DNA of 64,000 nt. Origin: an uncultured Lachnospiraceae bacterium. GTDB lineage: Bacteria; Bacillota; Clostridia; Lachnospirales; Lachnospiraceae. The stretch spans positions 1-64,000 of the forward strand of contig CAMWBY010000017.1 in assembly GCA_947172645.1 (NCBI GenBank), given 5' to 3'. The notes beneath the pieces were generated by a model that worked only from the letters and a program-made list of their open reading frames with translations, was not told where the DNA came from and did no database searches. Position numbers and translations under genes: made by a program. Positions 55,040 through 57,404 of the stretch are shown here, piece by piece (position 1 is the stretch's first letter; each line of letters begins with the position of its first letter).

Positions 55040-55460
55040 AGAAGGAGTGCGCGCACTCCGCAAAAATGCACAGGTTGCCTACGTGGCTTCCGTAAACGAA
55101 GAGGGATTCCCACAGATTAAAGGTATGCTCGTTCCGGAACACGAAAGCATGAAAATCCATTATTTCTCAACCAACACCAGCTCAAAAAGAGTGGCCCAGT
55201 TTTTAAAAAACCCAAAAGCTTCCGTATATTATGTGGATGATACAAAGGACCAGTATAAGGGCGCGCTGTTCACTGGCACGATGGAAGTCTGTACCGACCA
55301 TGAGACGAAGGCATTTCTGTGGCAGGACGGAGACGAGATGTATTATCCCGGCGGCATCGACGACGAAGACTACTGCGTTTACAGATTCCATGCAGAAACG
55401 GTCAATTACTACTACGGACTGAGCAACACCACCCTGTCCATGGATGAGTTTGAAGACTAA
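55023..55460 (+). CDS. pyridoxamine 5'-phosphate oxidase family (FMN-binding split barrel) protein
   Basis: QVAYVASVNEEGFPQIKGML...IHYFSTNTSSKRVAQFLKNPKASVYYVD; ATG 55023 after AAAGGAGG, overlapping the marR 3' end. Confidence 0.9.
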   Translation: MKSIIKEGVRALRKNAQVAYVASVNEEGFPQIKGMLVPEHESMKIHYFSTNTSSKRVAQFLKNPKASVYYVDDTKDQYKGALFTGTMEVCTDHETKAFLWQDGDEMYYPGGIDDEDYCVYRFHAETVNYYYGLSNTTLSMDEFED

Positions 55461-56758
55461 AAACTTCCATAGACTACCTTGCCGCCGCAGATAGTATAGC
55501 TGATTACCCCGGGCATCCTCTCCCCTGTGAAAGGAGAATTGGCAGATTTAGAAACAAACGTATCGGCCACCCATTCACGCCCGGGGTCAAACACTACCAA
55601 GTCAGCAGGGCCGCCCTCCGCCACGTATCCTGCGTCAAAGCCGTACAGCCTCGCCGGCGCCAGGCTCATCTTCCGAATCAGCTCCGACATAGACAAATAA
55701 TTTTTCTTAACCAGTTCGCGTATCCCTAACGATAAAGAAGTTTCCAATCCAATAATACCGCTGGGCGCCTCTGTAAGCGGTTTTGCCTTCTCCTGCGCGC
55801 TGTGCGGCGCATGGTCGGTGGCAATCATATCGATGGTGCCATCCCTGAGCCCTTCTATCACCGCAAGACGGTCTGGTTCTTCCCGCAGAGGCGGATTCAT
55901 CTTAGCCAAAGGGCCATACTTCATGACCGCCTCCTCTGTCAGTGTGAAATGATGAGGCGCTGCCTCCGCATAAATATGTCCGCTTCGCTTTTTCGCCTGC
56001 CGCACCAGTTCCACCGCTTCCTTCGTACTGATATGCTGGATGGATAAATCCGCTTCCTCCTCCACCGCAATCCGCAAATCCCGCTCCACCATGGAAATTT
56101 CCGCTTCCCGCGGCGAACCGCCTATGCCGTAATGTCTCGACGCCTTACCTGCATTCACCCCATTATTTGTAATCAGCGCCGGATTTTCCTCATGGAGGCT
56201 TACAGGCTTCCCGCACCGGGCCGCACGCCTAAGCGCCTCCCGCAGCAGCCCTTCATCCATGAGAGGTATCCCATCGTCGGTAAATCCCACAGCCCCCGAC
56301 CGGCTTAAGCCCTCCATATCAGTCAATTCTTTGCCCAGAAGCCCTTTTGTCACGTTGGCGCATGTATAGATGTGGATATCCGTCTGACTGCCCTTATTCA
56401 TCACATAGGAAAGCGTCTCCGGATTATCCACCGCCGGCTTCGTGTTCGCCATCAACACCACAGACGTAAAACCGCCCTTCGCTGCCGCCCGCGCACCTGT
56501 GAAAATATCTTCCTTATGGGTAAATCCGGGGTCACGAAAATGCACATGCACGTCTACCAGGCCCGGCGCAACATATTGACCTTTTAGGTCAATTATTTCC
56601 GTGTTTTCCTCGCCACCCTTATCTTTCGTCTCCGCTGCCATAGCCGTTTCTCCCTGCGGCAGTATACGGAATATTTTGTCTTCTTTTATGATGATATCCC
56701 TGTACCCCTCCGTCCCGGATGCGGGGTCAATCAAATAACCGTTCTTCAAATATAACAT
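55457..56758 (-). CDS. pyrC: dihydroorotase
   Basis: APGLVDVHVHFRDPGFTHKEDIFTGARAAAKGGFTSVV, ATDHAPHS. Confidence 0.95.
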   Translation of the reverse strand: MLYLKNGYLIDPASGTEGYRDIIIKEDKIFRILPQGETAMAAETKDKGGEENTEIIDLKGQYVAPGLVDVHVHFRDPGFTHKEDIFTGARAAAKGGFTSVVLMANTKPAVDNPETLSYVMNKGSQTDIHIYTCANVTKGLLGKELTDMEGLSRSGAVGFTDDGIPLMDEGLLREALRRAARCGKPVSLHEENPALITNNGVNAGKASRHYGIGGSPREAEISMVERDLRIAVEEEADLSIQHISTKEAVELVRQAKKRSGHIYAEAAPHHFTLTEEAVMKYGPLAKMNPPLREEPDRLAVIEGLRDGTIDMIATDHAPHSAQEKAKPLTEAPSGIIGLETSLSLGIRELVKKNYLSMSELIRKMSLAPARLYGFDAGYVAEGGPADLVVFDPGREWVADTFVSKSANSPFTGERMPGVISYTICGGKVVYGSF

Positions 56759-56839
56759 TTTATCCTATCTCCTCTTGCTTGCCATACTTCTCACACCAAC
56801 CGCCATATCACAGCTCTGCTATGACTCAAATCAGTGCGG

Positions 56840-56864
56840 AGAATGCCCGCATTTTGGGCATTCT
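56840..56864. other. hairpin flanking the branched element
   Basis: AGAATGCCC-gcatttt-GGGCATTCT. Confidence 0.7.
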
Positions 56865-56867
56865 TTG

Positions 56868-56970
56868 GCATGAGACGGAGTTGCAATGCAACTCCTAGAA
56901 CTTCCAAGGCAGCATAGCTGCCTTGGCGAAATCAGCCATTGCTGCGAGTGATTAGAAGTTCTTCTCATGC
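56868..56970. other. branched multi-hairpin element of about 103 nt
   Basis: P1 GCATGAGA/TCTCATGC; P2 GGAGTTGC..GCAACTCC; P3 AGAACTTC/GAAGTTCT contiguous with P1; P4 CAAGGCAGC-ata-GCTGCCTTG; P5 AATCA/TGATT or CAGC/GCTG. Confidence 0.65.
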
Positions 56971-56975
56971 TATTA

Positions 56976-57404
56976 TCAGTCAAAAACCACAGGTTTGTCA
57001 ACAAACTCTGTTTTGATGACTATGTAAGGATAACTTTCCACAGGCTTGCCTTTCTCCTCCGGTTCCGGGCCAATCAGATTCGTGTCCACATAAACTGCAT
57101 TGGCTGTTTCATACAAATCATTCACGGCTATGCTGTAACCGCCTGTCCCCTGCGTGCCATAACCCACACAAATATAAAGAAACCCCTTGTCCTCGAAAGT
57201 CATTTTGAATGCCTCTTTCTTTTTCTGCTCAATCATATTGAACAGTTCTTCCGGTAAATTATCCTCCGCAATCACCGTACATTCCAAGTCTTTGATTTTC
57301 TCCATCGTATCCTGCTTTTTTCCACATGCAAACACGCCCATGCACATTAAGCAAATCAGACACACACTTACAAACCTTTTCTGATACTCGTACAATCTGC
57401 CCAT
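56976..57404 (-). CDS. hypothetical lipoprotein, PrcB C-terminal-like
   Basis: Signal and lipobox-like CMGVFAC; GYGTQGTGGYSIAVNDLYETANAVYVDTNLIGPEPEEKGKPVESYPYIVIKTE. Confidence 0.7.
   Translation of the reverse strand: MGRLYEYQKRFVSVCLICLMCMGVFACGKKQDTMEKIKDLECTVIAEDNLPEELFNMIEQKKKEAFKMTFEDKGFLYICVGYGTQGTGGYSIAVNDLYETANAVYVDTNLIGPEPEEKGKPVESYPYIVIKTEFVDKPVVFD

Follow-up and report, generated by a model that had tools for sequence, protein, structure and literature searches.

A probably mobile multi-hairpin DNA repeat scattered in genomes of gut Lachnospiraceae

Much is known about the small structured repeats of Proteobacteria and pneumococci, and the BOX elements of pneumococcus are modular, dispersed stem-loop elements. 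Small structured, dispersed and non-autonomous repeats are already known as a kind, and several types have been described. REPs are imperfect palindromes of 20-40 bp with a GTAG or CGTC tag at the foot (PMC3733652), the 107-bp RUP of Streptococcus pneumoniae is dispersed at TA-containing sites and attributed to an IS630 transposase, and ERIC/IRU-type repeats are reported to have orientation-dependent effects on flanking mRNA (PMC2229807). In the open literature searched on Lachnospiraceae repeats and structured RNAs, neither this element nor any description of small structured repeats was found for this dominant gut family. The element presented here is short, multi-copy and without coding capacity, as is general for MITEs, and resembles the enterobacterial MITE-like repeats ERIC/IRU, RU-1, RU-2 and RU-3, which are likewise structured, transcribed, non-coding and dispersed, measure ~100-170 bp and have no transposase of their own. 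Compared by description, it differs from ERIC/IRU in the wholesale exchange of its stems, its multi-helix junction, its Lachnospiraceae host and its 5' end, which lies on a stop codon. With RUP it shares a dispersed distribution and, as proposed below, insertion at TA-containing sites, and with BOX the modular, dispersed stem-loops, from which host and sequence set it apart by description.

The window, i.e. the whole stretch of 64,000 nt analysed, carries one copy on the minus strand at ~56785-56972, between the stop codon of a lipoprotein gene and pyrC (Table 1). On the plus strand the locus folds with a minimum free energy of -73.5 kcal/mol, compared with -46.4 +/- 4.1 kcal/mol for dinucleotide shuffles (z -6.6; 0 of 200 shuffles as good), and the complementary strand also folds well below its shuffles (z -4.7). 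All helices named in the original prediction are present at their positions, including the hairpins 56877-56895, 56904-56926 and 56840-56864 and the small helix 56933-56944, and the view that such nesting is not a chance product agrees with the shuffles. Read on the plus strand, GCATGAGA (56868-56875) pairs with TCTCATGC (56963-56970) and AGAACTTC (56897-56904) with GAAGTTCT (56955-56962). The interval 56840-56970 first proposed captures the core of the unit, but its bounds are too narrow: by paralogue alignment the unit extends on the minus strand from the TAG at 56972 to at least 56800 and takes in the hairpin 56808-56824 as well as a degenerate GGAGG. Where it ends on the 3' side is uncertain, at about 56800 (the ribosome-site module) or at 56785 if the terminal repeat is counted.

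Table 1. Coordinates of the element copy, its parts and its neighbours in the window
Feature	Positions	Strand	Basis
Whole element, mRNA orientation TAGCATGAGAAG...ATGGCGGTTGGTGTGAGAAGTA	56785..56972	-	Alignment with 14 own-genome paralogues; empty orthologous sites
TGA stop of upstream 142-aa lipoprotein ORF (56976-57404), 3 nt ahead of element	56976..56978	-	ORF list; sequence TGA TAA TAG
TAG, element 5' end; in other copies often stop of upstream gene	56970..56972	-	Copy flanks
P1 5' arm GCATGAGA	56963..56970	-	Pairs with 56868-56875; covaries
P1 3' arm TCTCATGC; common form in other copies TCTCACAC	56868..56875	-	Pairing, covariation
P2 5' arm AGAACTTCT	56954..56962	-	Pairs with 56897-56904; UA/AU swaps between copies
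P2 3' arm GAAGTTCT	56897..56904	-	Pairing, covariation
P3, small helix CAGC/GCTG within P2	56933..56945	-	Two-sided changes in 4 of 5 pairs
Extra hairpin CCAAGGCAGC-TAT-GCTGCCTTGG, optional insert in P2	56904..56926	-	Paralogue alignment
P4 hairpin GGAGTTGCATTGCAACTCC, optional module; alternative AGTCTGC-TTT-GCAGACT	56877..56895	-	Pairing, alignment, covariation
P5 hairpin AGAATGCCC...GGGCATTCT	56840..56864	-	Pairing, alignment, covariation
P7 hairpin TCATAGC-AGA-GCTGTGA, 3' module; alternative GATTCCGC/GCGGAATC	56808..56824	-	Sequence, alignment
GGCGG, degenerate form of conserved GGAGG (Shine-Dalgarno-like), at 3' end	56800..56804	-	Sequence, alignment
Partial direct repeat of element 5' end (GTGTGAGAAGTA)	56785..56796	-	Like junction of tandem copies at other loci
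Downstream pyrC (dihydroorotase), own AGGAG in front	55457..56758	-	ORF, sequence; genus-wide synteny

Units of the family measure 95-190 nt and contain 4-6 helices. Their core is a branched fold in which P1 encloses P2/P3 and P4 and is followed by P5; a 3' module, often present, adds one or two hairpins and ends in ATGGAGGTTAG. In mRNA sense, the consensus order is TAG, P1 5' arm GTGTGAGA, P2 5' arm AGNACTTCT, P3, P2 3' arm, an optional P4, P1 3' arm, P5 (GGAGAATGCC...GGCATTCTCC), an optional P6 (GACAAG/CTTGTC), P7 and ATGGAGGTTAG. The window copy has all of these modules except P6, plus one additional hairpin in P2 that, in this genome, is common only to it and the C40 copy (L002). A covariance model of P1-P5 (R1) locates the element at ~18 places in this genome at E < 1e-3, and in 27 of 61 relatives, all congeners, with up to 59 or more matches per genome and with G033 (58 copies) and G002 (33 copies) as high-copy carriers. 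In an even draw of 298 Lachnospiraceae genomes it matches 17, from several genera. An exact-pattern scan of GTDB genomes, in which copies were chosen by an exact P1/P5 pattern, names Parablautia intestinalis, P. muri, Lachnospiraceae bacterium 28-4 and many MAGs as carriers; the covariance model did not bear out a further match, in Rouxiella. Rfam (release 15, gathering and E-value modes) gives no match in the window and only sub-threshold chance matches at the locus. Spread by plasmids or phages was considered and rejected, as neither collection contains a match to the element and viral contigs yield one exact-pattern match. As a separate observation, the surroundings of the R1 match at L313, L316, L318, L319 and L326 contain a second subfamily (AAGACATGAAGTTATACTAAGGCGTC...; P1 AGACATGA/TCATGTCT) directly downstream of TATAAT-like boxes, so that transcripts would start with the hairpin.

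Compensatory changes are usually read as proof of RNA selection. In 15 copies from this genome, two-sided changes were counted at 13 pairs (54 cells, compared with 0-3 when partners are slid), and among 100 copies from other genomes such changes occur in 34 of 44 pairs (306 cells against 18-37 with slid partners). Whole stems are swapped between copies: P3 occurs as ATGCC/GGCAT, ACAGC/GCTGT or GCAGC/GCTGC, P4 as GGAGTTGC/GCAACTCC or AGTCTGC/GCAGACT, and P7 as GATTCCGC/GCGGAATC or GTCACAGC/GCTGTGAC. Stems also differ at one and the same site in sister species, as in L235/L239 (GCGTGAGA/TCTCACGC) versus L264 (ATACGAAG/CTTCGTAT), L238 versus L253 and L244/L247 versus L260, which points to re-insertion, conversion or arm rewriting there. 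If selection acted on the RNA strand only, G-U pairs should far outnumber A-C mismatches, because an A-C is a G-U on the other strand. Counted outside helix P2b, however, 116 G-U stand against 97 A-C (binomial p 0.22), so that the compensations look to have arisen at the DNA level more than by RNA selection. Template switching between hairpin arms has been described as a mechanism that creates and maintains stems (PMC8794818).

The genomic niche of the element was determined from 193 copies read with their flanks, 141 of them with an upstream gene on the same strand; the ORF calls come from a simple script, and many of the genomes are MAGs. Between two genes co-directional with the element 105 copies were found, versus 2 between two genes of opposite direction (binomial 7e-29). 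The sequence begins with TAG in 120 of the 193 copies, and 76 of the 141 start at an offset between -8 and +1 nt from where the upstream stop codon ends. The commonest offsets are -3 (41 copies), where the element's own TAG acts as the stop codon, 0 (15 copies) and -8 (14 copies), where the TGA within GTGTGA serves as stop; offsets -3 and -8 are partly forced, because any frame entering the element ends there, while class 0 is not. A 3' module ending in ATGGAGGTTA, the GGAGG module, is kept in 65 of the 193 copies, and in 19 of these (only about 30%) the start codon of a long ORF, e.g. pdxS, follows at Shine-Dalgarno distance, 4-13 nt further on. At the window locus, GGCGG lies ~40 nt from the pyrC start, and since pyrC has an AGGAG of its own, the 3' module is idle there. 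Terminator function, one of the options initially offered, is unlikely, because in the locus sequence no hairpin, read in either direction, is followed by a run of T. Two structural variants were seen at other loci. Before pdxS (L078, ~1501-1600), another long hairpin (AAACATT...AATGTTT, TAAGGCG...CGCCTAA) takes the place of P1-P4; P5 and the GGAGG are retained, the latter serving the pdxS start. At L042, L103, L124 and L075, P5-like hairpins 3' of the core form head-to-tail arrays of ~33 nt (GTAAATGAAGNGTGCCANAGGGCGGCATTCTCC) similar to REP clusters.

Two readings of the locus can be judged from orthologous sites. The original prediction had offered a dispersed structured repeat (REP/MITE-like) next to a structured RNA of the pyrC leader, and the former is borne out by multiple copies, covarying stems and presence or absence between sister species. 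A cis-regulatory leader of the attenuator or riboswitch type would suit a stable fold on the transcribed strand of the presumptive pyrC 5' leader. Nevertheless, the lipoprotein-pyrC neighbourhood is conserved in the genus and the element is absent from it in 29 of the 29 relatives read, which indicates a recent insertion and refutes a conserved pyrC leader function; with paralogues in front of unrelated genes (pdxS, ABC transporters, SAICAR synthase) and no Rfam match, this reading is hardly credible any more. At the junction, TTTGACTGATAATA continues into TACAGG in G010 and G012 and into GCATGAG in the window, and L226 has a differently sequenced variant at the lipoprotein-pyrC site. Comparison of four sister species with flanks ~92-97% identical revealed further insertions without counterpart in the sisters (L245, L248, L250, L254, L259, L263 and L311). 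In its ancestral state, L259 has two overlapping genes (...GATATCATG...); once the element is in place, the upstream frame stops at the TGA of the element and the downstream ATG comes after element GGAGGTTAGT, the element thus supplying TGA and GGAGGTTAGTATG. Alternatively, such elements could be old residents that have moved little in recent times and were lost elsewhere by deletion between their terminal repeats (TAGTGTGA...TAGTGTGA). The ends are indeed direct repeats (GTGTGAGAAG) and not inverted, and the empty sites of L254, L263, L248 and L250 keep a TAGYGTGA-like sequence, so that some may be deletion scars; the retained sequence may be an excision scar between terminal direct repeats or the original target. 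Against this, TAGYGTGAG occurs outside elements about as often as expected (7 found, 6 expected) and the empty window, L259, L245 and L311 sites have no scar, which makes deletion as the general explanation rather improbable. The idea that the P1 5' arm derives from the target site, suggested by L250, L254 and L263, was rejected, as the arm is lacking at the same four scar-free sites. Regarding target duplication (TA or about 8 bp), L263 fits TA (or TAGCGTGA) and L259 fits TA with two flanking differences, while the window site is too diverged. Other repeats occur in the vicinity of element sites: a different dispersed element, TAGATTGAAAAATCAGAGATTTTTCAATCGCAAATTTG...GCATGGGTATTAG, occupies the same kind of TTAG site in L249 (after GGAGGTTAG) and in L308 (at the L244 site), with possible remnants in L297; the upstream flank of L255 (1361-1491) carries an unrelated repeat (TTCGCCATCCAGGCTCAGGTCGGGC...), of which each of four sister genomes has clearly more than a dozen copies; and a short palindromic repeat, AACTGTGAAGAACAGGGCTCTGAACAGTT, lies near element sites in L301, L307 and L340.

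Two further readings concern what moves the element and what preserves its fold. Mobilisation as a REP/BIME-type repeat by a RAYT (Y1 transposase) would be in keeping with a palindromic element between unidirectional genes of operons, with the tandem P5-like hairpins at some loci and with the finding that GTAG REP termini often give TAG stop codons (PMC3733652). Yet the unit is much larger than a REP, branched, and does not have the form of a single tagged palindrome, and the RAYT suggested by the original prediction is absent: Y1_Tnp (PF01797) has 0 matches in this genome (G000) and occurs in only 2 of the 17 genomes tested, neither of them one of the high-copy carriers G002, G016, G033 and G351. 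A RAYT/IS200-type origin was rejected on these grounds, and the REP/BIME reading as a whole is very unlikely. An IS630-type origin, as for RUP, was likewise rejected, since DDE_3 was found in 0 of the 17 genomes; with direct-repeat ends, terminal inverted repeats common to a resident transposon of the families tested (Y1 and IS630-type) were not seen. Among 75 neighbours of element copies, no transposase stood out in the 25 most frequent families, and ordinary metabolic and transport families were the commonest. The strongest competitor, though still an improbable one, is a fold selected as an RNA element for processing, stability or ribosome recycling between genes, which spreads because it is useful to operons. 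The very strong orientation bias and the stop-codon adjacency speak for it, and in E. coli translation is lowered by REPs that lie no more than 15 nt from a stop codon (cited in PMC12306157). Contrary to this reading are the similar numbers of G-U and A-C, in contrast to the tRNAs of these loci with 17 G-U and 0 A-C (a sample of only 8, from a tRNA finder biased towards G-U), the folding of both strands well beyond shuffles, and the change of occupancy between sister species.

Taken as a whole, we consider it likely that the locus holds one copy of a previously uncatalogued, dispersed and mobile structured repeat of gut Lachnospiraceae, non-autonomous and inserted and maintained as follows. 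An enzyme supplied in trans would insert the element at TA-containing sites, perhaps by reading the folded single strand. Inserts would persist chiefly in gaps between co-transcribed genes, since the TAG/TGA of the 5' end closes the upstream frame and a GGAGG of the 3' end may be available to the next gene. In mRNA, the compact intercistronic structure could modulate termination, stability or coupling, and stem pairing would be kept mainly by rewriting of arms at the DNA level (template switching in hairpins, conversion or re-insertion). An mRNA role, including processing, is plausible by likeness to REPs near stop codons; the simplest functional reading is tolerance, with the element persisting where its ends leave both neighbouring genes readable. 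A bolder version is doubtful: a new class of mobile element that lands on stop codons between co-transcribed genes with its own stop and ribosome-binding site, whose enzyme reads the folded strand and not its sequence, and whose stems are rewritten in situ, leaving the shape as the only thing inherited.

The element is assigned to a new family of structured repeats that are non-autonomous, resemble MITEs and REPs and occupy a stop-codon/ribosome-site niche; the family is not represented in Rfam release 15. What is new is the branched fold with wholesale stem exchange, this niche and the stem turnover within single sites. Where sister genomes carry different stems at one site, they offer a natural experiment on whether compensatory changes come from DNA-level events, and the equal numbers of G-U and A-C should caution RNA discovery pipelines based on covariation. 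The exact stop-codon/ribosome-site niche suggests how a repeat can spread within operons without breaking them.
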